This document shows, one piece after another, positions 8,304 to 20,696 of a stretch of 64,000 nucleotides of DNA. Each line of letters begins with the position of its first letter. The stretch's first letter is position 1. A program made the position numbers and the translations under genes. A model generated the notes under the pieces. That model did not search any database. It was not told the origin of the DNA and worked only from the letters and a program-made list of their open reading frames with translations. Source of the stretch: Pelosinus fermentans JBW45 (GTDB lineage: Bacteria; Bacillota; Negativicutes; DSM-13327); NCBI RefSeq assembly GCF_000271665.2, contig NZ_CP010978.1, positions 1,644,501-1,708,500 on the forward strand, in the 5' to 3' direction.

Positions 8304-8475
8304 TCCAGGAGATGCGACTATGTTTTTAGAACTCACTTTTCAGGATTTAAGTGGAGATCTTATTTGAAATTAGCCAGGGTAAGCGATAAGGAACATCCTT
8401 TGCATCTTAGTTTAGGCGGATGGTTAGATGAGATTGTTGTAGCATATGAAACATGGTCATTTATCAGAAGGTGGA

Positions 8476-8612
8476 GAACGTTAGTAAGAAATGGCAGGTT
8501 AGCCACGTTATTTGGCTTAGGTTTGATAGAACTGAAGAGGCATTGTTGTGCAATTAAGGTGGTAATGCGGTAAAAACTCGTCCTTGGATATATTCAAGGG
8601 CGAGTTTTTTAT
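8476..8612 (+). promoter_or_regulatory. Orphan T-box 3' half (duplicate of the T-box at 19171)
   Basis: About 137 bases are near-identical (five or six differences) to 19171-19308, covering the middle stem, the T-box element and the terminator (AACTCGTCCTTG...CAAGGGCGAG then T6). The T-box here reads AAGGTGGTAATGCGG, a C-to-T change in the invariant ACGCGG part. Upstream, 8320-8475 shows no Stem I with AGTA and specifier loop, and no amino-acid gene follows directly. It now probably acts only as the terminator of the srl operon. A short open frame across it (8364-8573) is not credible. Confidence 0.7.
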
Positions 8613-8644: not shown

Positions 8645-8673
8645 TTGACAGGATTATACATAAGTGCTAGAAT
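8645..8673 (+). promoter_or_regulatory. Sigma-A promoter of the malonate decarboxylase operon
   Basis: TTGACA (8645-8650), a 17-base spacer and TAGAAT (8668-8673) form a near-consensus promoter. The expected start, near 8680, gives a leader of about 190 bases that contains a strong terminator. Confidence 0.75.
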
Positions 8674-8754
8674 GAAAATCGAGAGTAATAAGTGAGTGAT
8701 AGATGGTCGTCCCTATATAAATGTGTTTGTAATAACTGAATATTGGAGAATGAG

Positions 8755-8792
8755 AGAGCAAAAAAGTCTAGGACTTTTCTGCTCTTTTTTTT
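8755..8792 (+). terminator. Leader terminator (attenuator) of the mad operon
   Basis: AGAGCA-A-AAAAGTC (8755-8768), loop TAG, and GACTTTT-C-TGCTCT (8772-8785) form a long hairpin followed by T7-8. No gene lies between the promoter at 8645 and this hairpin, so it acts on the leader of the operon. The operon itself encodes a HutP-like antiterminator. Confidence 0.8.
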
Positions 8793-8871
8793 GTGAAAAA
8801 AAAGAGCGGGGGTACCTAGTGGCAACAGGTTCTATTGGCTAAATCATAAAAATAGAAGGGAGGATGAAATA

Positions 8872-8997
8872 ATGGATGTTGTGAAGTATGCTTTTTTCTC
8901 CTATGGGCTAACTGCTGTCATATCATTACTAGTAATGGGAGTTATTGTTGTAATCAGTAAAGCACTTAGTAATACAGAAGAACAAAAGGAGATGTAA
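8872..8997 (+). CDS. Small one-helix subunit, decarboxylase gamma-like
   Basis: A 41-residue protein (MDVVKYAFFSYGLTAVISLLVMGVIVVISKAL...) with one membrane segment at about residues 12-32 and a charged tail. AGGGAGG lies nine bases before the ATG and its stop is four bases before madB. Position, size and topology match the gamma (OadG-like) subunits of Na+-pumping decarboxylases, which stabilise the complex. Similarity is by topology only, so the role is inferred. Confidence 0.6.
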   Translation: MDVVKYAFFSYGLTAVISLLVMGVIVVISKALSNTEEQKEM

Positions 8998-9001
8998 CAA
9001 T

Positions 9002-10207
9002 ATGTTAGAGACAGTAATTCAGCTTTTTCCTGGAATAGGTAGCTTATTTGTACAGGATACGACAATTGCATTTGCTAGGGTATTTTTGATCCTCTTTGGC
9101 TTTGCCCTTGCGTATTTTGGTTTTACTCGGACATTAGAGCCTTTGATTATGGTTCCCATGGGAATCGGTATGATTGCCATCAATTCAGGGGTGCTTTTTT
9201 TGCAAGCTGGCAACATTGGTACGATTTTTTTAGATCCTTTAGTTGAGCAACCTGATGTTCTAGTGAATATTATGCAAGTCAATTTCTTGCAGCCGATATA
9301 TAATTTTATGTTTAGTAATGGACTTATAGCTTGTTTAGTTTTCTTTGGGATTGGATCAATGAGTGAAATTGGTTTTATTCTTGCAAGGCCTTGGTCATGT
9401 ATGACGGTTGCTATATTTGCTGAGATGGGTACATTCGTTACTCTTGTGATTGGGGCGAAAATGGGTCTGCCGATTGGCGAAGCCGCTGCAGTAGCGACTA
9501 TCGGTGGTGCGGATGGTCCAATGGTTCTGTTTACTTCCCTAATGTTGGCGCCAAAGCTTTTTGTCCCTATTTCCATTATTGCTTATTTGTATCTTAGTCT
9601 AACCTATGCTGGTTATCCGTATATTATTAGATTGTTAGTTCCCCAAAAATATCGTGCTATGGATGTTGAAGTAGAAATACCACAAGTTTCTAAAAAAGCA
9701 AAATTCATTTTTACAATTTCGATATGCGCGTTACTCTGCCTCCTACTTCCGGTAGCAGCACCTCTAATAATGTCCTTCTTTCTTGGGGTAGCAATTAAAG
9801 AAGCCGAAATTAATCCGTATCAAGAATTACTTGAGAATACCCTGCTTTATGCTTCCACGTTGTTTCTTGGACTGCTGTTAGGGACCTTATGTGAGGCACA
9901 AACCCTTCTTAATCCTAAAGTAGCTATATTGTTAGTCTTAGGCATTACTGCTCTTGCTATTTCAGCTGTGGGCGGGCTTTTAGGTGGTTGGCTTGTGTAT
10001 TTTGTTACTAAGAACTACAATCCAGTGCTTGGTATTGCTGGTGTTTCTTGTGTTCCTACTACAGCTAAGCTTGCTCAGTATGCAGTTGAAGAAGAAAATC
10101 CTTTTGCCATGGTGTTGCCATTAGCTATGGGGGCGAATATCTGTGGAGTTATTGTATCAGCCATTGCGACAGGCGTGTTTGTATCGACTCTATTCTTAGT
10201 TAAATAA
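9002..10207 (+). CDS. madB: Na+-translocating carboxybiotin decarboxylase beta subunit
   Basis: This 401-residue membrane protein is of the OadB/GcdB/MmdB/MadB family, which decarboxylates carboxybiotin and pumps Na+ outward. Family signatures are visible: GIGSMSEIGFILARPW, ATIGGADGPMVLFTSL and GIAGVSCVPTTAKLAQ, with about nine to eleven hydrophobic helices. In this operon the substrate is the carboxybiotin on MadF, charged from malonyl-ACP by MadCD, so malonate decarboxylation is coupled to ion pumping as in Malonomonas rubra. It starts four bases after the small subunit's stop. Confidence 0.93.
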   Translation: MLETVIQLFPGIGSLFVQDTTIAFARVFLILFGFALAYFGFTRTLEPLIMVPMGIGMIAINSGVLFLQAGNIGTIFLDPLVEQPDVLVNIMQVNFLQPIYNFMFSNGLIACLVFFGIGSMSEIGFILARPWSCMTVAIFAEMGTFVTLVIGAKMGLPIGEAAAVATIGGADGPMVLFTSLMLAPKLFVPISIIAYLYLSLTYAGYPYIIRLLVPQKYRAMDVEVEIPQVSKKAKFIFTISICALLCLLLPVAAPLIMSFFLGVAIKEAEINPYQELLENTLLYASTLFLGLLLGTLCEAQTLLNPKVAILLVLGITALAISAVGGLLGGWLVYFVTKNYNPVLGIAGVSCVPTTAKLAQYAVEEENPFAMVLPLAMGANICGVIVSAIATGVFVSTLFLVK

Positions 10208-10242
10208 AGGGATATATTCTTTATTTAGAAAGAGTGATAATT

Positions 10243-11034
10243 ATGGATGATAACTACGTTAATGATGAGAAAATGCGAAAAGAAATAGAGACCAAATTAC
10301 CTGGAAGAAGAATTCACTATTATAGAGAGATAAGCTCAACAAACACCGCAGCTCTTGAATTCGCTGAAGCGAGAGCTCCAGAGGGAACATTGGTATTAGC
10401 TGATCGTCAGACAGGGGGTCACGGTAGGTTAAACAGAAAGTGGCTTTCGCCTGCAGGAGGAGGTCTTTGGTTTACATTGGTGCTAAGACCACAGATCGAT
10501 CCAGAAAAAGCAGCGCAAATTACCCTGTTAGCAGCAGTTGCTATTGCAAGGGCTATTGAGATTCATACAGGTATATGTCCTGGGATTAAATGGCCTAATG
10601 ATTTATTGATTAAGGGGAAAAAAGTTTGTGGTATTATTGCCGAAATGGAGAGTGGGGAAACAATTGACCACGTGATCTTAGGCATTGGTATCAATGTTAA
10701 TATGGATGTGCAGGATTTTAGTCTTGACTTACAAGATATAGCTACATCGTTATCTCAGGAATTGGGACGTCCTATATGTCGATTATCCCTTCTTGATGAG
10801 GTGCTTCGTCAGTTTGATTGTTGGTATTCCATATGGCAAAGAGATGGTTTTGAGCCTATTCGTGTTACGTGGAAACAATTTAATATTACACTCAAGCAGA
10901 ATGTCAAAGTAGATTCTGGTGATGCAGTATGGTCTGGCGAAGCCCTTGATATTGATGATGGTGGGGCTCTGATCATTAAAAGTATGAATGGAATGATAAA
11001 GAAATTTAATTTTGGTGAAGTAAGTGTTCGATGA
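10243..11034 (+). CDS. birA: Biotin--protein ligase
   Basis: A 263-residue biotin protein ligase. It shows STNTAAL, DRQTGGHGRLNRKWLSP (biotinyl-AMP loop), GIKWPNDLL, GKKVCGII and GIGINVNM in order. It lacks the N-terminal DNA-binding helix-turn-helix of bifunctional BirA, so it is a ligase only. Its place between madB and madA says that it biotinylates MadF (K35). The ATG at 10243 is preferred to the GTG at 10234 because AGAAAGAG then sits at normal spacing. Confidence 0.92.
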   Translation: MDDNYVNDEKMRKEIETKLPGRRIHYYREISSTNTAALEFAEARAPEGTLVLADRQTGGHGRLNRKWLSPAGGGLWFTLVLRPQIDPEKAAQITLLAAVAIARAIEIHTGICPGIKWPNDLLIKGKKVCGIIAEMESGETIDHVILGIGINVNMDVQDFSLDLQDIATSLSQELGRPICRLSLLDEVLRQFDCWYSIWQRDGFEPIRVTWKQFNITLKQNVKVDSGDAVWSGEALDIDDGGALIIKSMNGMIKKFNFGEVSVR

Positions 11035-11103
11035 TAATCTGTTTTTTAACGCGCGTTTAAAAATATAAGTTAAAAATGAGAGAGTGAGAGTGAGAGGATA
11101 ATT

Positions 11104-11592
11104 ATGAGTACCGAAAAAAGATTACCTTTAGAAAATAGTGTTACAAGCGTGGGGACAGCAGCTATGCTGCTAGCTCTTACTAGAACAATGGCTGACGAGG
11201 ATGATATAAAACAAATGGTGGGCAAGAAGGGCTATCGGTTTGTTGTAACTGAAGTGGGAGGAAAATCATCTTTTGCGGAATTTCAGGAGAAAACAACTAG
11301 AGCTGTTATGGGTGCCTGCCTAAATAATGGCTTGATCACAAAAACAGTGGCTAATATGCACGCATTGTTACATGCAGTTGAGGAAGCCAAGCGCGGAGTG
11401 CTTGTCAATGCTTCAACCAATACTAGTTTAGCGACAAAAATTGCAATCGTTAGAGACTCCAACTGGATTGCTGTGGCTATATTCGGGGAATCAGCTATTC
11501 ATCCCATGACCAATCATGAAAGAGCGGGATTAGGGGTAATGCATCTGTGCAATTGTGATTCTTCTAATTCAGCAAAGGATAATCCGGAATAG
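11104..11592 (+). CDS. HutP-family RNA-binding regulator
   Basis: A 162-residue protein matching HutP, the Bacillus antiterminator that, with its ligand and Mg2+, binds NAG-rich RNA. The Mg-site pair H86 and H90 (MHALLHAVEEA, compare HALYH in HutP), the core WIAVAIFGESAI and the C-terminal HERAGLGVMHL (H138, H147) are all present. It lies inside the malonate operon, not a histidine operon, between birA and madA. The mad leader has a strong terminator at 8755, and its own leader is the GAG-rich stretch 11079-11097. Family membership is strong; control of mad genes is inferred. Confidence 0.82.
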   Translation: MSTEKRLPLENSVTSVGTAAMLLALTRTMADEDDIKQMVGKKGYRFVVTEVGGKSSFAEFQEKTTRAVMGACLNNGLITKTVANMHALLHAVEEAKRGVLVNASTNTSLATKIAIVRDSNWIAVAIFGESAIHPMTNHERAGLGVMHLCNCDSSNSAKDNPE

Positions 11593-11655: not shown

Positions 11656-13326
11656 ATGGATAAGGAGACACAGCGAGTATGGGATTCTCTAAATAGGGAT
11701 ACTCAGGAAAGAATGGCAAAGGCCAGAACTATTGTTGGTACAGGAAAAGTTATTTCAGTTGATAAAACAGTTGCCTTGCTAGAAGCTATTATTAAACCTG
11801 GTGATAAGGTAAATCTAGAGGGCAATAATCAAAAACAAGCAGATTTCTTAGCAGATTGTTTATGTAAGGTTGATAAAAATAAAGTATATGATTTGCATAT
11901 GATTCAGTCGGTACTTTCTTTACCTAGTCATTTAGATGTTTTTGAAAAGGGAATTGCAAAAAAAGTTGATTTTTCCTTTTCAGGTCCTCAAGCAGGAAGA
12001 CTGGCTCAGTTGATAAGTGACAAAAAGATTGAGCTGGGTGCAATTCATACATATCTTGAATTGTTTGGTAGATACTTCATTGATTTAGTTCCTAAGGTTG
12101 CCCTTATCGTAGCATTTCAGGCTGACAAGGAAGGAAATCTTTATACGGGATTTAACACAGAAGATACTCCTGTAATCGTAGAAGCGACTAAGTTTAAACA
12201 GGGGATTGTTGTAGCACAGGTTAATGAAATTGTTGACAAACTTCCCAGGATTGATATACCTGCAGATTGGGTTGATTTTGTAGTCAAGTCGCCAAGTCCA
12301 TTTTATATTGAACCGTTATTTACTCGTGATCCTGCTCTGATTACAGATTCACAGGTTCTGCGGGCAATGATGGCGATAAAAGGAATTTATGCTGAATATG
12401 GAGTGCAAAGACTCAATCATGGTGTTGGTTTCGATACTGCTGCTATTGAACTTTTACTTCCTACTTATGGGGAAGAATTGGGTTTGAAGGGCAAAATTTG
12501 CTCTTATTTCTCATTGAATCCTCATCCGACTATGATTCCAGCTATTGAAAGTGGTTGGGTTAAGTCCATTCATAGTTTTGGCGGAGAATTAGGGATGGAA
12601 GATTATGTGAGAGCTCGTCCTGATGTATTCTTTGTTGGTCCTGATGGTTCTATGCGTTCCAATCGAGCATATTCCCAGATGGCAGGTCATTATTCTTTGG
12701 ATATGTTTATTGGTGGTACACTCCAAATTGATAAGTATGGTAATAGCAGTACGGCGACAGCAAGTCGAGTTGCAGGCTTTGGTGGTGCACCTAATATGGG
12801 TTGTGACGCCAAGGGCAGACGGCATTCAACAGAAGCATGGCTTAAATGTGGTCAGGAATATGGAATGAGCCATGAGCTAGTTGGCAACTTGCCACGTGGT
12901 AAGCGTTTAGTTGTGCAATTGCAAGAGACTTTCAGAGAAAAACTTGCACCTGGTTTTGTAGAGGAACTGGATGCATGGAAACTGGCTAAAAATGCAAATT
13001 TGGATATACCTCCAGTAATGATTTATGGAGATGATTTAACCCATGTTGTTACAGAAGAGGGTATTGCCTATCTTCATAAGTGTTCCTCCCTTGTAGAAAG
13101 AACGGCTGCTATTAGAGCTGTTGCAGGCTATACAGAAGTTGGCATGTTAGCTAAACCAGAAGATACGGCTGCATTGCGTAAGAAGGGGATTGTTAAGACA
13201 CCTGAGGATTTAGGTATTGATATATCACGGGCGAATCGGTCGCTTCTAGCTGCAAAAAATATTCGTGAACTAGTTACATGGTCTAAGGGATTATATAATC
13301 CACCGGCTAAATTCCGGAATTGGTAA
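11656..13326 (+). CDS. madA: Malonate decarboxylase alpha subunit (ACP transferase)
   Basis: A 556-residue homologue of MadA/MdcA, the acetyl-S-ACP:malonate ACP transferase that swaps acetate for malonate on the acyl carrier protein. The sequence runs as a two-lobed CoA-transferase-like protein with strong family blocks (GVGFDTAAIELLLPTYGEELG, NRAYSQMAGHYSLDMFIGGTLQIDKYG). Length fits the family. It begins the catalytic block madA-E-C-D. AAGGAGTG upstream is somewhat far from the ATG, but the N-terminus KETQRVWDSLN is in register with known alpha subunits. Confidence 0.93.
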   Translation: MDKETQRVWDSLNRDTQERMAKARTIVGTGKVISVDKTVALLEAIIKPGDKVNLEGNNQKQADFLADCLCKVDKNKVYDLHMIQSVLSLPSHLDVFEKGIAKKVDFSFSGPQAGRLAQLISDKKIELGAIHTYLELFGRYFIDLVPKVALIVAFQADKEGNLYTGFNTEDTPVIVEATKFKQGIVVAQVNEIVDKLPRIDIPADWVDFVVKSPSPFYIEPLFTRDPALITDSQVLRAMMAIKGIYAEYGVQRLNHGVGFDTAAIELLLPTYGEELGLKGKICSYFSLNPHPTMIPAIESGWVKSIHSFGGELGMEDYVRARPDVFFVGPDGSMRSNRAYSQMAGHYSLDMFIGGTLQIDKYGNSSTATASRVAGFGGAPNMGCDAKGRRHSTEAWLKCGQEYGMSHELVGNLPRGKRLVVQLQETFREKLAPGFVEELDAWKLAKNANLDIPPVMIYGDDLTHVVTEEGIAYLHKCSSLVERTAAIRAVAGYTEVGMLAKPEDTAALRKKGIVKTPEDLGIDISRANRSLLAAKNIRELVTWSKGLYNPPAKFRNW

Positions 13327-13341
13327 TAGGGAGGGATTTTA

Positions 13342-13674
13342 GTGGCACTCCAGCAACTGAAATTTGAGTTTAAGGTAAATAATCCAATTGAATTTTCCCA
13401 TGAATGGCGCCATCATGGCGTTGTGGGATCTGGCGATCTTGAAATTCTTATGGAAAAGAAGGATCTTGGCGGTGCAGTTCAAGTGCAAGTTGTAACTCCA
13501 GTTGTAGGCTTTGATAAGGTTTGGGGCATGGTGCTTGAGAAGATTGTTAAAGAGAATCGCTTAGGGAACATTTCTATTGAAATAAATGATAACAATGCAA
13601 CGCCAATCGTTGTTTCTATGAGACTTCGTCAGGCCCTCGCTGAAGCGGCCAAGGATGTACGGAAGGAGGTTTGA
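13342..13674 (+). CDS. madE: Malonate decarboxylase acyl carrier protein
   Basis: A 110-residue carrier protein. Unlike ordinary ACPs it is modified with 2'-(5''-phosphoribosyl)-3'-dephospho-CoA; the attachment serine is S30 in GVVGSGDLEIL. It carries malonyl and acetyl thioesters between MadA, MadCD and MadH. The start is GTG at 13342 with GGGAGGG in front. Its stop is followed after five bases by madC, whose ribosome site lies inside its last codons. Confidence 0.92.
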   Translation: MALQQLKFEFKVNNPIEFSHEWRHHGVVGSGDLEILMEKKDLGGAVQVQVVTPVVGFDKVWGMVLEKIVKENRLGNISIEINDNNATPIVVSMRLRQALAEAAKDVRKEV

Positions 13675-13679
13675 TTAAA

Positions 13680-14663
13680 ATGAGTGTTTGGAATCAATTG
13701 CAAAAAAATAGTTTTCTTGAATCAAGTGCACGCCAGCGTGCAAATGGCATTGTTGATAATGGAACGTTCACTGAATTACTTGGACCGCGGGATCGGGTTT
13801 CCAGTCCGCATCTTCCCGTTTTAGGAGAAGCGGTGGCTTTTGATGATGGTATTGTTACTGGAGTTGGTTTGATTGGTAAAAGGCCCGTGTTTGTGATTTC
13901 TCAAGAGGGGCGGTTTATCGGTGGTTCCGTAGGGGAAGTTGGCGGCGGGAAAATGGTTGCGACCCTAAAATTAGCCATAGGTGCTTATCATCAGATAAAG
14001 GAAAAATATCCAACGTCTTATCAAGGACGTCTTCCTGCGGTGGTTATTTCTTTTGAGACAGGCGGTGTTAGGCTCCATGAATCCAATGCAGGCTTACTCG
14101 CTCACGCGGAAGTGATGGATCAGTTCCAGGATGCTCGTGGAAAGATTCCTGTGATTTCTTTAATTGGCAGCAAAATTGGTTGCTTTGGAGGAATGGGATT
14201 TGTCGGTGCTGCTACTGACTTAATTATTATGAGTGAGCAGGGGCGTTTAGGGCTAACAGGTCCAGAAGTAATAGAGCAAGAAATGGGCAAAGATGAGTTT
14301 GATGCTTCTAATAAAGCATTAGTATATCGAACTACTGGCGGCAAACATAAGTACATAATGCAAGATTGTAATTTTCTTGTAGAAGACAGCATTGAGGCTT
14401 TCCGTACGCAGCTTGCTGAAGTTCTTACTCTTTCTATGGAATCCATCGAAGAAATGCGGCGTGTTGGTAGTCAAAAACTTGTAGAAGAACAGCTTGAACT
14501 TGTAAAACTAGCTGTTGAACTTGATCCGCGAGATTCTATGGATGTATGGAAATATTTTGGAAATGAATCTCCGGCAATTTTGCCAGAGTTATCGTTAACG
14601 GATTTTCTTAAGCAAGCTAAACGGCGGGTTAGAAAAGTTGAAGGAGGTTCAGTTAATGGATGA
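13680..14663 (+). CDS. madC: Malonyl-ACP decarboxylase carboxytransferase, beta part
   Basis: A 327-residue crotonase-fold carboxyltransferase subunit (MdcD/MadC). Seen are the glycine-rich GGSVGEVGGGKMV, FETGGVRLHESNAGLLAH and GCFGGMGFVGAATD oxyanion-hole segments. In the biotin-dependent system it moves the carboxyl of malonyl-ACP to biotin on MadF together with MadD. The ATG at 13680 follows AAGGAGGT by nine bases. The gene overlaps madD by eight bases, so translation is coupled. Confidence 0.92.
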   Translation: MSVWNQLQKNSFLESSARQRANGIVDNGTFTELLGPRDRVSSPHLPVLGEAVAFDDGIVTGVGLIGKRPVFVISQEGRFIGGSVGEVGGGKMVATLKLAIGAYHQIKEKYPTSYQGRLPAVVISFETGGVRLHESNAGLLAHAEVMDQFQDARGKIPVISLIGSKIGCFGGMGFVGAATDLIIMSEQGRLGLTGPEVIEQEMGKDEFDASNKALVYRTTGGKHKYIMQDCNFLVEDSIEAFRTQLAEVLTLSMESIEEMRRVGSQKLVEEQLELVKLAVELDPRDSMDVWKYFGNESPAILPELSLTDFLKQAKRRVRKVEGGSVNG

Positions 14664-15543
14664 AGTGGAAAGTATGATTGGTCGAGGTCGAGAAGCTATT
14701 GATATGATTATTGACGCTGACTCTCTTCAAGAAGGTATCATTGGTGAATTTCAGTTTGATCCAGAACTTGGTCCTGGTGCAGTAGTAGGCACAGTTACTA
14801 TTGGTGGACAACCTGCGACGATTATAGCAAATGATGCTGATGAATATAATCCAAGATTTCCCGTAGTTTTTGCTGGTGTTATTGGTTTAGAAGAAGGCTA
14901 CAAAATGGCGTTGGCAGTATATAGAACCATCACTGTTGATAAGGAAAAACCATTAGATCAAAAGCGGGCACTTCTGTTAATTGTTGATACTCCGGGCAAT
15001 GGTCCAGGAAAAATTGAAGAAATCATGGGGATGAATAAATCCACGGGTGGTTATCAGCTAGCGTTAGCTGAAGCAAGAAAAGCTGGTCATCCCGTTATTG
15101 CTATTGTAATTGGACGGGCTATTAGCGGTGCATTTCTCTGCCATGGTTTGCAAGCCGACCATATTTTGTCCCTATCAAAAGAATTCGGTACAATGATTCA
15201 CGTTATGCCGTTAACCAGTATTTCTCGGATTACCAAACTTGACATTGAATTATTGGAGGATTTGTCGACTAAGAATCCAGTGTTTGCCGCAGGTGTAAAC
15301 TTCTTTTATCGTCTAGGTGGCGTCAATGAAGTTGTTGATCAAGTTGAGGGAATGCGAGATGCGATGATTCGTCATATTGATGAGGTGCGTGAATTAAAGC
15401 GCACGGGTCAATTTGATAAACTTGGTCCATGGGGACGTGGAACCATCGGAGCAGAGCGTGGTGGCCGTCAAACACGGAAAATGGTGATTGAAAAGATGAC
15501 AGAAGAATTTGATGCTGTGGCTGACAAATATCTATACGCGTAA
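14656..15543 (+). CDS. madD: Malonyl-ACP decarboxylase carboxytransferase, gamma part
   Basis: A 295-residue partner of MadC (MdcE/MadD family). Conserved blocks are GTVTIGGQPATIIANDADEYNPRFPVVFAGVIGLEEG, LLIVDTPGNGPGKIEEIMGM and AIVIGRAISGAFLCHGLQAD. The ATG at 14656 overlaps the madC stop and has AAGGAGGT in front. With MadC it forms the heteromeric carboxytransferase. Length and spacing match other mad clusters. Confidence 0.92.
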   Translation: MDEVESMIGRGREAIDMIIDADSLQEGIIGEFQFDPELGPGAVVGTVTIGGQPATIIANDADEYNPRFPVVFAGVIGLEEGYKMALAVYRTITVDKEKPLDQKRALLLIVDTPGNGPGKIEEIMGMNKSTGGYQLALAEARKAGHPVIAIVIGRAISGAFLCHGLQADHILSLSKEFGTMIHVMPLTSISRITKLDIELLEDLSTKNPVFAAGVNFFYRLGGVNEVVDQVEGMRDAMIRHIDEVRELKRTGQFDKLGPWGRGTIGAERGGRQTRKMVIEKMTEEFDAVADKYLYA

Positions 15544-15554
15544 GGGAGTTTGTG

Positions 15555-16649
15555 ATGAAAGATATTCTCGATAGTCTTGCTCAAATGGTTGAAGAATTTG
15601 GAACGGCTCCTACTTTTGAAGAAATGCCAAGACGTACCCTTCAGGATAAAGGTATTGGTGGGCCAACTGCCGCCCATGTTATCGAGGAAGTTCATGTTCC
15701 ATTAAATCTGGCTTATCTTAGTTTTACGACAGGGTCGTCCGCCTTTCAAAATATCGTTGGGGTTACCCATCCAGAGATGGAGGCCCGGGAAAAAGCCACT
15801 CGCTTAGTTTTTGAGCAGGCTAAGGTTCAAAGTGGGAGTAACATTTTATTTACCTATCCTCCCTTAGTCAATGTTTTTACTAAAAAGGCTCTTGATGCTT
15901 GTGGTATGAATTGTTCTTTTCTGCGGCGCTCTAGTCGAGATGCATTTTTGGCGGCCCTTTATAATAATCGTCCAGACGTTGTTGTTGGTGAATCTTCCTT
16001 TTTACGTTCGGCTCTGGAAGATGCAAAATCCATGGGGATGGCTACCTTTCTTCCTAAGGAAGTTATTATACTGGCTGCTGGTACACCCTTAGATCTTGAA
16101 TTACCTGCCGTTGCAGAACGCATTTTAAATGGATTGGTTCATGATCTATATGGTTGTCAGGAATTTGGTTGGATTACCATCAATGGCATTCCCGTAAGGG
16201 ATGATATTACGCTTGTGAAGTCTCCCTTGTCAGGTAATTCAATGTACGAGGTTGTAGTTGGCGGGCTTCCCATGGGTGATAGCTTTCCCGTTGCCGATAG
16301 TGGTCATATTTGTAATTCTGCAGGCAAAATAATTACTTATCGGCGAGAACGTACCTTTCCAGAATATGAAGTTATAGTACGTGCTACGACTTTATCTTCG
16401 GATGTAACCATTGGAAGAGTTGCGCGAACGATTCTACGGATAAAGGGGCGCATTGTAAAAGTCGATCCGGGGGTCAAGACCATGGCTTCCCAGACTATGC
16501 TAGAGCTATGTTCGGGAGGCGATGCATCGGCAGAACCAATCATTATTACTGGACCCCAAGGAACTGGTTTATTTGATGAGCTGGTAAAGGCTCAGCTTGA
16601 ATATCAGCAGATGAGTAAAAGTGATCCTGTTTGGGTAAAGAAGAGGTGA
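15555..16649 (+). CDS. madH: Deacetyl-ACP:acetate ligase
   Basis: A 364-residue adenylate-forming enzyme of the MadH type, related in fold to phenylacetate-CoA ligases. It uses ATP and acetate to reload the thiol of deacetyl-ACP, priming the malonate cycle. Seen are FTTGSSAFQNIVGVTHPEMEAREKATRLVFEQA, a central VVGESSFLRSALEDAKSMG and a C-terminal small domain (RTILRIKGRIVKVDPGVKT). It starts just after madD with AAGGGAG in front. No other thiol ligase is in the cluster, supporting this role. Confidence 0.85.
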   Translation: MKDILDSLAQMVEEFGTAPTFEEMPRRTLQDKGIGGPTAAHVIEEVHVPLNLAYLSFTTGSSAFQNIVGVTHPEMEAREKATRLVFEQAKVQSGSNILFTYPPLVNVFTKKALDACGMNCSFLRRSSRDAFLAALYNNRPDVVVGESSFLRSALEDAKSMGMATFLPKEVIILAAGTPLDLELPAVAERILNGLVHDLYGCQEFGWITINGIPVRDDITLVKSPLSGNSMYEVVVGGLPMGDSFPVADSGHICNSAGKIITYRRERTFPEYEVIVRATTLSSDVTIGRVARTILRIKGRIVKVDPGVKTMASQTMLELCSGGDASAEPIIITGPQGTGLFDELVKAQLEYQQMSKSDPVWVKKR

Positions 16650-16652
16650 TCG

Positions 16653-17339
16653 ATTATACGTCGGCATGATTTAGTAGAAATAAGCGATCAAGGTCGTGAA
16701 TTGGCGTTTGAGAGAGTCGCTCCTCATCTACCACCCCGTGAATTTGAGTTAGTCAAACAACTCATTATTGGCACTCCAGGAGGAATAAAAATCCCTGGTA
16801 TTGTTAGACGTGAAGACAGGAAGCAGATTCCAGATACGATTCCTGTAGGATTTTCTTCACCGTTTCGCATTGATGGTAACCGACTGCGCATTGCGGGATT
16901 TGTTCCCACATCGGCAGTGATACAGGTTGTTTCTCCTTTTGCGGTAATTGATCGAGAATTCTTTCTACGAACGCCTTGTTTAAATGCCTTGGTAGAGGTT
17001 CTTGCAGTGGCAGGGGAACTGGGACTCAAACTTGGTGTGTGGGGATCGTCAGCGTTGGAGATATTTACAGGATTGCAGTATACGGATGAGGCATCTGATC
17101 TGGATGTGCTTGTTGGTATGACTAGGCTAGATACTATTCGAACCTTTACAAATCGCCTAGCAGAGATCGCAAGAACATTTCATTGCAAAGTGGATGCAGA
17201 GCTTGAGCTAAATTCAGGCTACGGGGTTAAAGTAGCAGAGTTGTTTATGCATACTGACACGGTATTAGCTAAGGGATTAAATGATGTAATACTTCTGCCT
17301 AAACACGATATTTTAGCTGAGATGACAGAAGTTCAGTAG
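16653..17339 (+). CDS. mdcG: Phosphoribosyl-dephospho-CoA transferase (holo-ACP synthase)
   Basis: A protein of about 228 residues that attaches the phosphoribosyl-dephospho-CoA prosthetic group to MadE. The nucleotidyltransferase core (LKLGVWGSSALEIFTGLQYTDEASDLDVLV, with DLD) is clear. The first ordinary start in frame is a TTG at 16701, but the 16 residues before it (IIRRHDLVEISDQGRE) match the RHDLV N-terminus of MdcG proteins, and no ATG, GTG or TTG exists there. An ATT at 16653, six bases after AAGAGG, is therefore proposed as the start; ATA at 16656 or a one-base indel after a GTG at 16646 are alternatives. Confidence 0.8.
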   Translation: MIRRHDLVEISDQGRELAFERVAPHLPPREFELVKQLIIGTPGGIKIPGIVRREDRKQIPDTIPVGFSSPFRIDGNRLRIAGFVPTSAVIQVVSPFAVIDREFFLRTPCLNALVEVLAVAGELGLKLGVWGSSALEIFTGLQYTDEASDLDVLVGMTRLDTIRTFTNRLAEIARTFHCKVDAELELNSGYGVKVAELFMHTDTVLAKGLNDVILLPKHDILAEMTEVQ

Positions 17340-17399
17340 GTTTATTTGGCCGATAGGTCATTTAATATAAGAAATATAAAATGAGAGGAATTGATCATA

Positions 17400-17609
17400 A
17401 TGGAATTAAAAGCACGCGTTCCTGGCAAAGTTATTGAGGTTACTGTTAAAGTAGGCGATTCTGTAAAGGTTAAGGATGTTGTAGCTGTAATGGAAGCTAT
17501 GAAAATGAAACAAAAGTTTCCTTCTTCCGTTGAAGGGACAGTAAAAGAAATTAAAGTAAACGCTGGTGACAGAGTTTCCGCAGGCGATGTAATTATGATT
17601 GTTGAGTAA
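17400..17609 (+). CDS. madF: Biotin carrier protein of malonate decarboxylase
   Basis: A 69-residue free-standing biotinyl domain. The biotinylation motif is EAMKM with K35 as the acceptor, preceded by a GKVIEVTVKVGDSVKVKD barrel half and followed by its mirror GTVKEIKVNAGDRVSAGD. It shuttles CO2 from MadCD to MadB. The ATG at 17400 follows AGAGGAATTGATC. It lacks the proline/alanine-rich hinge of larger carriers. Confidence 0.93.
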   Translation: MELKARVPGKVIEVTVKVGDSVKVKDVVAVMEAMKMKQKFPSSVEGTVKEIKVNAGDRVSAGDVIMIVE

Positions 17610-17621
17610 AAATACTAAGGG

Positions 17622-17657
17622 TTATTCCCAGGATTCTTTATAGGGTTCTGGGAATAA
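17622..17657 (+). other. Hairpin between madF and madL
   Basis: TTATTCCCAG (17622-17631) and CTGGGAATAA (17648-17657) are a perfect 10-bp inverted repeat with a 16-base loop and no T-run. It could stabilise the upstream messenger or lower expression of the transporter genes. Confidence 0.6.
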
Positions 17658-17679
17658 ATAAAAAGAGGAGGGCTAAACT

Positions 17680-18060
17680 ATGGCTATTTATGGTGTGGCA
17701 ATTCTATCTTTATGTATGTTTATTGGTATATTTTTAGGTGATGTTCTAGGGACTTTTCTTGGGGTTGCTGCTAATGTTGGCGGGGTCGGTTTTGCAATGC
17801 TATTACTAATTGTTCTTACTGATTATTTAATGGGAAAGGATATTTTGTCAAAGCTTGCTGAAAGTGGTATTTCCTTTTGGAGCGCGATGTACATTCCCAT
17901 AGTTGTGGCGATGGCTGCTCAACAGGATGTATTGGCGGCTATAACAGGGGGGCCTCTTGCAATTATAGCGGGGATTGTTACTGTTCTAGTAGGGTTCTTA
18001 TTTGTTCCTCTAATAAGTAAAATTGGCAATAAAACAACTTATAAGGATCATGCAATATAA
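17680..18060 (+). CDS. madL: Malonate transporter subunit MadL
   Basis: A 126-residue membrane protein with four hydrophobic segments, matching MadL (GIFLGDVLGTFLGVAANVGGVGFAMLLL, FWSAMYIPIVVAMAAQQDV). MadL and MadM together form a malonate:Na+ symporter. AAAGAGGAGGG precedes the ATG and madM begins 21 bases after its stop. The pairing with the decarboxylase genes confirms the substrate. Confidence 0.92.
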   Translation: MAIYGVAILSLCMFIGIFLGDVLGTFLGVAANVGGVGFAMLLLIVLTDYLMGKDILSKLAESGISFWSAMYIPIVVAMAAQQDVLAAITGGPLAIIAGIVTVLVGFLFVPLISKIGNKTTYKDHAI

Positions 18061-18081
18061 GAATAAGGAGGAATTTCCATA

Positions 18082-18852
18082 ATGGATTTCGGAAAAATAA
18101 TACTAGATATTTTCGTGAAGAATGGCTTGGTCATGTCATTTCTTTTTATTGGGCTAGTAACATACTTGGCATACCTCATATCGGATAAATTAACGAATAA
18201 AAGAATCCACGGTTCAGCAATTGCAATTGTTTTTGGTTTAATGTTGGCCTATTGGGGTGGTATACAAACTGCTGGACATAAGGGACTGGCTGATATTAAG
18301 TTGTTCACTGGCGTTGGTTTGATGGGTGGCGGAATGCTAAGAGACTTTGCGATTGTTTCTACGGCCTTTGGTGCGAGGTTGGAAGAAATTAAAAAATGCG
18401 GCACAGCAGGAGCAATGTCATTGTTGTTAGGTGTTATTTTGTCTTATATTGTTGGGGTAGTTTTAGCCTTTGCCTTTGGTTATACTGATACTGTAAGTCT
18501 TACTACCATTGGTGCTGGTTCAGTTACCTTTATCGTTGGACCTGTTACAGGCGCTGCCTTGAATGCAAGCTCTCCTGTTATTGCTATTAGTATTGCAGCT
18601 GGTGTGGTGAAGTCTATTGTAGTTATGATTATCACACCAATTATGGCAAAAAGCATAGGTCTTAATAATCCACAATCTGCTATGGTATATGGTGGGTTAA
18701 TGGGAACGACAAGCGGAACAGCCGCTGGACTTGCTGCTGTTGATCCTAAATTGGTTCCATATGGAGCAATGACAGCTACCTTTTACACAGGATTAGGTTG
18801 TTTACTTTGTCCATCGGTTCTTTTCTTGGCAACGAAAGCAATTTTCGGTTAA
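18082..18852 (+). CDS. madM: Malonate transporter subunit MadM
   Basis: A 256-residue membrane protein with about seven or eight hydrophobic helices and MadM blocks (GLMLAYWGGIQTAGHKGLADIKLFTGVGLMGGGMLRDF, TTSGTAAGLAAVDPKLVPYGAMTATFYTG). It is the larger half of the malonate:Na+ symporter. AAGGAGGAA precedes the ATG. It is the last gene of the operon; no clear intrinsic terminator follows before the T-box promoter at 19012. Confidence 0.92.
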   Translation: MDFGKIILDIFVKNGLVMSFLFIGLVTYLAYLISDKLTNKRIHGSAIAIVFGLMLAYWGGIQTAGHKGLADIKLFTGVGLMGGGMLRDFAIVSTAFGARLEEIKKCGTAGAMSLLLGVILSYIVGVVLAFAFGYTDTVSLTTIGAGSVTFIVGPVTGAALNASSPVIAISIAAGVVKSIVVMIITPIMAKSIGLNNPQSAMVYGGLMGTTSGTAAGLAAVDPKLVPYGAMTATFYTGLGCLLCPSVLFLATKAIFG

Positions 18853-19054: not shown

Positions 19055-19308
19055 TAATGAAGAAGAGTAATGACGGAGTAAGTAAACCATTTGTAAATTT
19101 CCAGAGAGTCGGCATAAGGTGGAAGTCGACAATGAGCGGTGGAAGAAGATCCCTCCGGAACTGTGTTTCTGAACGTTAGTAAGAAATGCCGGGTTAGCCA
19201 CGTTATTTGGCTTAGGTTTGATAGAACTGAAGAGGCACTGTTGTGCAATTAAGGTGGTAACGCGGGTAATAACTCGTCCTTGGATATATTCAAGGGCGAG
19301 TTTTTTAT
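19055..19308 (+). promoter_or_regulatory. T-box riboswitch leader
   Basis: The leader has Stem I landmarks (GAAGAAGAGTAATGACGGAG, AGAGAGTCGG, GGTGGAAG), the lower stem GGAG/CTCC, the T-box AAGGTGGTAACGCGG (19251-19265) and a terminator (AACTCGTCCTTG...CAAGGGCGAG, T6) whose 5' arm can pair alternatively with the T-box. Uncharged tRNA would favour read-through into the threonine dehydratase gene. The specifier region is GGAAGAAGATCCC; its register is unclear, with GAA, GAT or ATC possible, so the tRNA is not assigned. Confidence 0.88.
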
Positions 19309-19460: not shown

Positions 19461-20696
19461 ATGAATCAGAACACTTTTAAGGTAGCTAATTCTTGTGTGT
19501 CAATTGAAGACGTATATGCAGCGGCAAGGAAGCTGCAAAGTATAATCAAAAAGACAGAACTCATTGAAAGTCCAGTGTTTAGTAATGAGTGTGGAAATTT
19601 TGTATTCATTAAACCAGAGAACCTACAAGTGACAGGTGCATTTAAAATCCGCGGAGCATTTAATAAATTGAGTAAGTTAAGTGATGAGGAAAAAAGTAGG
19701 GGAGTCATCGCTTCCTCAGCAGGAAATCATGCCCAGGGGGTTGGCTATGCAGCTCAATTACTGGATATTAAGGCTACTGTTGTGATGCCTGCAACCACGC
19801 CCATCATTAAAGTGGAAGCTACAAGAAATTATGGAGCAAATGTTGTATTATACGGCGATAGTTATGATGAAGCTTATAAAAAAGCCAGAGAGTTGGAGAC
19901 CGAACATAACTATGTCTTTGTGCATCCCTTTGATGATTTGGATGTAATTCTTGGTCAAGGTACAGTGGCCTTGGAAATTTTGAATCAATTAGAAGATGTT
20001 GATGAGATATTGGTTCCTATAGGTGGAGGCGGTTTAGCGAGTGGCATTGCATTTGCGGCAAAAATGCTAAAGCCAAGTATCAGAATTATCGGAGTTGAGC
20101 CAGAAGGCGCATGCTGCATGAAAAAGTCTTTGGCTGATAATAAAGTAATAGAGCTGGAGAAAGTGGATACCATAGCAGATGGTGCTGCTGTAAAAAGACC
20201 AGGTACATTGACGTTCGAATTTATCAGAGAGTTTGTTGACGAAGTCATCACTGTTTCTGACTTTGATATTGCAGAAGCAATACTGCTCTTAATCGAAAAG
20301 CATAAACTGATCACAGAAGGAGCAGGGGCGCTGTCCTTAGCTGGCTTAAAGAAATTATCTTCCAAGAATAAAAAGGTAGTTTGCTTAGTCAGTGGCGGAA
20401 ATATTGATATTTTAACGATTTCGGCAATCATAAATAAAGCCTTGGTATTTAGGGGAAGGCTGTTCTGCTTTACCATTAATTTACCTGACAAACCAGGGGA
20501 ATTATTGCATGTGGCAAAAATTATCTCTGAATTAAATGCAAACGTAATAAAATTGGATCATAATCAATCGAAAGTGATGGACAGCTTTAAACAGGTTCAA
20601 CTGGAAGTTACCGTAGAGACGAATGGGCATAGTCATGTAGAGGAAATCGAAGCTGCCTTTTTACGAAATGGTATTGATATCCAAAAAATTTATTAA
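19461..20696 (+). CDS. ilvA: Threonine dehydratase with ACT domain
   Basis: A 411-residue PLP enzyme that deaminates threonine (and serine) to 2-oxobutyrate (pyruvate). The PLP lysine is K62 in GAFKIRGAFNK, the phosphate-binding loop is PIGGGGLASG, and one C-terminal ACT domain begins at about residue 333 (FTINLPDKPGELLHVAKII). One ACT domain and this length fit the TdcB-like or short IlvA class, not the two-ACT E. coli IlvA. Start: TTGGAGG then ATG. It is under the T-box and followed by an editing-protein gene 47 bases on. Confidence 0.9.
   Translation: MNQNTFKVANSCVSIEDVYAAARKLQSIIKKTELIESPVFSNECGNFVFIKPENLQVTGAFKIRGAFNKLSKLSDEEKSRGVIASSAGNHAQGVGYAAQLLDIKATVVMPATTPIIKVEATRNYGANVVLYGDSYDEAYKKARELETEHNYVFVHPFDDLDVILGQGTVALEILNQLEDVDEILVPIGGGGLASGIAFAAKMLKPSIRIIGVEPEGACCMKKSLADNKVIELEKVDTIADGAAVKRPGTLTFEFIREFVDEVITVSDFDIAEAILLLIEKHKLITEGAGALSLAGLKKLSSKNKKVVCLVSGGNIDILTISAIINKALVFRGRLFCFTINLPDKPGELLHVAKIISELNANVIKLDHNQSKVMDSFKQVQLEVTVETNGHSHVEEIEAAFLRNGIDIQKIY

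Follow-up and report, generated by a model that had tools for sequence, protein, structure and literature searches.

The malonate decarboxylase (mad) operon of Pelosinus fermentans JBW45 contains a gene of the HutP family, and we propose that its product is a regulator specific to malonate use that binds RNA in response to a ligand and that would free the mad terminators through GAG repeats and repress its own translation. We put the probability of this reading at roughly 0.78; binding to RNA and to a ligand is inferred. The operon lies in a 64-kb stretch of contig NZ_CP010978.1 (the window; all positions are counted within it), and its features are on the forward strand. Judged from sequence, operons of this kind have GAG triplets at a spacing of 8 nt at three sites: in the leader, over the ribosome-binding site of hutP, and, in many of the relatives, at a terminator in the gap from hutP to madA.

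NCBIfam and Pfam matches identified the operon as encoding a Na+/biotin-type malonate decarboxylase, with the gene order small membrane ORF, madB, birA, hutP, madA, acyl carrier, beta, gamma, madH, mdcG, biotin-carrier-like ORF, madL, and madM. The assignments of madB, birA, madA, acyl carrier, beta, gamma, mdcG, madL, and madM were confirmed by NCBIfam/Pfam or by comparison. The first gene (8872-8997) encodes a membrane protein of 41 aa, is kept ahead of madB in related operons, and had no match in Pfam or NCBIfam. It is followed by madB, encoding the Na+-transporting carboxybiotin decarboxylase subunit (9002-10207; TIGR03136, 687 bits), which marks the same enzyme type as the Malonomonas rubra-type Na+ malonate decarboxylase operon, by a birA-type biotin protein ligase gene (10234-11034; TIGR00121, 210 bits), and by hutP (11104-11592). 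The remaining mad genes, assigned by NCBIfam/Pfam and comparison, occupy 11656-18852, with starts at 11656 (madA), 13342 (acyl carrier), 13671 (beta), 14638 (gamma), 15552 (AMP-ligase-like madH), 16701 (mdcG), 17680 (madL), and 18082 (madM); the biotin-carrier-like ORF is also present in this part.

A promoter scan placed a sigma-70-type promoter at 8645-8673 (TTGACA at 8645, a 17-nt spacer, and TAGAAT at 8668; 11/12 match, with TG). It was the better of two hits in the region, where promoter-like hits were rarer than in shuffled sequences. At the predicted RNA start, a first cluster of NAG triplets (8681-8702) consists of GAG, GAG, AAG, GAG, and TAG at the irregularly spaced positions 8681, 8683, 8690, 8694, and 8700. 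A second cluster (8746-8758), with GAG at 8746, 8752, 8754, and 8756, runs into the 5' arm of an intrinsic terminator at 8749-8791 (arms 8749-8768 and 8772-8791), the predicted attenuator, whose folding energy was -17 to -18 kcal/mol (z about -3). This terminator was not listed by a simple terminator scan of the region and was later picked up by a stem finder. An earlier note, made from the letters alone, had described a good promoter at 8645 and a strong terminator at 8755 ahead of the first gene, and both were recovered here. It had also called the leader rich in NAG triplets without the exact Bacillus spacing; the triplets are present, but they are not striking in the window leader alone and become significant only through comparison with relatives.

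The HutP-family gene that the note had placed inside the mad operon was borne out. Its product matched Pfam PF09021 over the full length of the model (118 bits, cut-off 25; 1-128/128), and a PDB sequence search returned matches to HutP only. The name "HutP family protein" is already found in database annotation. When the AlphaFold (AF2) model of the protein (pLDDT 90) was used in a fold search, the best matches were the HutP crystal structures 4ok9 and 1wpv and the HutP-RNA complex 1wmq (E 1e-9 to 3e-8; TM about 0.63-0.75), and the first eleven matches were all HutP entries. Against the equivalog model of hut HutP (NCBIfam NF002838), the protein scored 35.9 bits, under the cut-off of 155, and its neighbours are mad genes, not hut genes. 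The conserved histidine pair and C-terminal motif recognized earlier proved to be His86 and His90, and His138, all of which align with hut HutP; we take them to correspond to the metal ligands of Bacillus subtilis HutP. Arg88 and Glu90 of hut HutP are presumably its histidine contacts. In our alignment, the mad clade has mostly V/I/F and small residues at these positions, and Arg140 (window HutP numbering) is nearly invariant across the mad clade and absent from hut HutP. By alignment and predicted fold, the window protein is a true HutP homologue with three putative metal-ligand histidines.

Rare occurrence of HutP genes beside mad genes had been named as an observation that would refute the proposal, and the proposal withstood this test. 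Among 300 sampled Negativicutes genomes, 20 MadB proteins passed the family cut-off, and a mad-clade HutP gene was found in all 15 complete madB+madA operons (15/15), either inside the operon or immediately upstream. Five apparent HutP-less mad loci proved not to be mad operons: they were lone MadB-like genes above the cut-off (L103, L104, L105, L106, and L110), none of which (0/5) has madA or HutP nearby. The Clostridia locus L197 possesses madA, beta, and gamma and lacks both madB and HutP, suggesting that the regulator follows the biotin type of mad. A HutP-alignment scan of a collection of genomes from 84,980 species yielded 63 loci, of which 36 were mad loci, 13 lay beside a class III CoA-transferase gene, 9 lay before nitrogenase genes, and 5 were other. 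Hosts were found among Negativicutes, Clostridia, and Eggerthellaceae, and mad operons in the last two of these groups also carry HutP of the mad clade. The mad rows clustered together with support in the tree, and four CoA-transferase rows, Sporomusa malonica among them, branched within this cluster (97/92). The HutP gene of the CoA-transferase clade precedes the class III CoA-transferase gene, and at locus L157 the genes for CoA-transferase, MadL, and MadM (MadM, 330 bits) follow a more distantly related HutP gene. Judged by these occurrences, HutP is a fixed part of biotin-type mad operons.

The leaders were then compared by an unbiased triplet-spacing scan (64 triplets × 10 spacings, 640 pairs). 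In 23 mad leaders, GAG pairs 8 nt apart came top of the 640 (44 observed versus 3.8 expected; in a separate test of this pair, 3.2 expected, z 25), and GAGAG-N3-GAG occurred in 13/23 leaders versus 0.3 expected. The same pair ranked first in the flanks of mad hutP genes (40 versus 5.0 expected) and of CoA-transferase hutP genes (17 versus 1.2 expected). When the scan was applied to a control set of four hut loci on plasmids of Bacillaceae and Peptoclostridium, UAG at 7 nt ranked first (7 versus 0.9 expected), in agreement with the known HutP NAG repeats, and this result served as a positive control. The mad spacing of 8 nt (GAG-N5-GAG) therefore differs from the 7 nt of Bacillus-type hut, which refines the earlier description. 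Reading of the leaders upstream of madB located GAG repeats just past the promoter and again at the terminator, and two NAG clusters were evident in the leaders of several relatives. A chance excess of GAG was rejected on the basis of shuffle, control-start, and control-terminator tests. Because the loci are related, the p-values overstate independence; despite this relatedness, the GAG code is common to three groups of hosts and to two types of operon.

When every locus was scanned blindly for its densest GAG/8 cluster, most mad loci had it close to the mad leader or to hutP. The densest GAG-N5-GAG cluster of the whole window, which had been missed before, starts at 11078 (11078-11096, with GAG at 11078, 11080, 11082, 11086, 11088, 11092, and 11094) and covers the Shine-Dalgarno region of hutP, making this ribosome-binding site a second putative site, stronger than that in the window leader, for which no binding data exist. 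GAG repeats were present at 13/21 mad hutP starts versus 5/211 control starts (p = 2e-12) and in 9/21 hutP 3' regions versus 9/211 controls. The resemblance of GAG to the Shine-Dalgarno sequence is a caveat, though control starts were used. Among terminators called by the stem finder, at least two GAGs were found in 24/26 of those between hutP and the next gene and in 21/48 of those in leader regions, compared with 30/855 (4%) of control terminators; a GAG-N3/5-GAG pair was found in 16/26 internal terminators after hutP and in 2/855 controls. Across the relatives, the GAG code overlaps the 5' arm of both leader and internal terminators, as the GAGs at 8746-8756 do in the window leader. An additional attenuator lies between hutP and madA in many relatives; the stem finder detected no terminator between these two genes in the window. 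The suggestion that a HutP relative controls mad read-through is largely supported by this comparison, in that the GAG code lies in terminator 5' arms, where antitermination of the HutP type would place it, in the absence of binding or read-through data.

With Mg2+ and histidine bound, hut HutP binds NAG repeats and prevents terminator formation (PMC7430163). By analogy, a mad HutP hexamer with Mg2+ held by the retained His86, His90, and His138 and with its ligand, most likely malonate, would wrap the GAG repeats. At terminators, it would capture the 5' arm so that the hairpin cannot form, and RNA polymerase would read into the mad genes; without ligand, transcription would end at about 8791. 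That the protein acts by antitermination and not by termination is inferred from the 5'-arm overlap, as in hut. Bound at 11078-11096, HutP would cover its own Shine-Dalgarno sequence and limit its own synthesis, a negative feedback.

Since GAGs cluster most densely in the window over the Shine-Dalgarno sequence of hutP and are also found at several madA starts, HutP could be mainly an autogenous and operon translational repressor, with the leader terminator ordinary or otherwise controlled. We consider this improbable, given that GAGs lie in or beside the 5' arm of nearly all internal terminators (24/26) and of many leader terminators and occur in only 4% of controls. The repeats could also belong to TRAP, a protein ring that reads GAG/UAG repeats at terminators and ribosome-binding sites, or be chance purine-rich Shine-Dalgarno repeats; part of the hutP site is made up of a repeated GAGAGT hexamer, and TRAP is alike in action to what we propose for mad HutP. 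However, the two proteins are unrelated, TRAP sites have 2-3-nt spacers (a period of 5-6 nt) rather than a spacing of 8 nt, the pattern is lacking in control starts and terminators, and a search for the TRAP gene (PF02081) gave 0 matches in this genome, on which ground TRAP was rejected. This explanation is largely refuted, and we regard it as barely tenable. Control of the mad operon by a T-box, with HutP incidental, is only marginally easier to defend. A T-box-like element (8437-8609) with its own terminator (8572-8609; stem score 38) does lie upstream of the mad promoter, but its match to Rfam RF00230 (8437-8588, 32.4 bits) is far below the gathering score of 93, and other mad leaders, read by eye, have no such element. 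The strong promoter at 8645 is situated downstream of the T-box terminator and allows mad transcripts to begin beyond it, and T-box control was rejected for the weakness and upstream position of the match. The element has no gene of its own and is probably separate or left over. A strong T-box (116.6 bits) was observed elsewhere in the window, at 19061-19284, upstream of a threonine dehydratase-like gene at 19461.

Malonate as the ligand is inferred, without ligand data, because it is the common theme of the mad loci and the CoA-transferase/MadL/MadM loci; it is also a natural Mg2+ chelator, and the metal histidines of hut HutP hold their ligand through Mg2+. Histidine is unlikely because the residues that presumably contact it in hut HutP are replaced in the mad clade. 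It remains quite possible, if not the reading we prefer, that the same protein and sites respond to acetate, Na+, biotin, or a CoA-linked intermediate, or that no ligand is needed. No ligand data exist to exclude this, malonyl-ACP and acetyl-ACP are direct intermediates of malonate decarboxylase, and birA adjoins hutP in the window operon. On the other side, the metal histidines are kept, and one HutP clade is common to two different malonate-linked operon types. As for biotin, birA is missing from many Clostridia mad operons and from the CoA-transferase loci that carry mad-type HutP; biotin is therefore unlikely, and sensing of biotin through birA was rejected, as birA is unlinked to HutP outside some clades.

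HutP is a textbook case of single-strand RNA antitermination. The mad protein shares with HutP of B. subtilis and Geobacillus the fold, the three metal-ligand histidines, the location of the gene inside or beside the operon, and NAG repeats that overlap the terminator 5' arm. In contrast to hut HutP, it is associated with a malonate operon rather than a histidine operon and with GAG at 8 nt rather than UAG at 7 nt; its clade has lost the presumed histidine-contact Arg and Glu and gained a conserved Arg, and it has an added putative site on the hutP ribosome-binding site. Mad HutP would accordingly combine a new target and an altered RNA code with what is probably a new ligand. No HutP regulator for mad was described in the openly licensed papers searched, although mention elsewhere is not excluded, and only one HutP operon and one ligand were known in the open literature searched. 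If true, our proposal supplies a regulator for the anaerobic biotin-type malonate decarboxylase operons of gut and environmental bacteria, and a malonate clade with an altered RNA code would make HutP a family whose members could be compared, and their specificities for ligand and RNA exchanged, and would provide a ready set of sensors.

Other HutP clades belong to the same Pfam family as mad HutP and have different targets. A second, very common clade follows a sodium/solute symporter (SSS) gene in many Negativicutes genomes (L001/L058; G000:C1:1292377), and its leaders carry UAG pairs at 8 nt (19 versus 0.9 expected), which also occur at the symporter ribosome-binding site. At L043 and L051, HutP-family genes, several copies per locus, lie beside tyrosine decarboxylase and tyrosine-tyramine antiporter genes; no clear repeat code was detected in four tyrosine decarboxylase leader sequences, which were partly masked. 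In the alignment, all three metal histidines are missing from both the SSS and the tyrosine decarboxylase clades. We think it somewhat probable that HutP is a broad family of ligand-gated RNA readers, each clade changed in ligand and RNA code (hut UAG/7, symporter UAG/8, malonate GAG/8), which control malonate use, transporters, amino-acid decarboxylases, and the Desulfosporosinus-type nitrogenase operon through terminators and ribosome-binding sites.

At four Acidaminococcaceae-type loci (L121:3574-3703, L122:3533-3672, L125:3341-3530, and L128:252-392), the mad leader contains a cobalamin riboswitch, mostly after a GAG attenuator; we know of no requirement for B12 in the malonate decarboxylase pathway. 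In Desulfosporosinus and its relatives, a HutP-family gene is located just upstream of nifI1-nifI2-nifH-nifD-nifK (L163, L164, L166-L168, and L170-L174; the gene order is annotated for L164 and taken by similarity for the others), and the leaders of this clade carry GAG pairs at 8 nt. In the gap between HutP and nifI1 (e.g., L164:6426-6931), GAG repeats are accompanied by a conserved GGGCACC-hairpin-GGAGCG element, and a terminator follows. Four of the loci were scanned against Rfam without a match. The 5' arm of the terminator (GAGAGCCC) could pair with the GGGC of the element.
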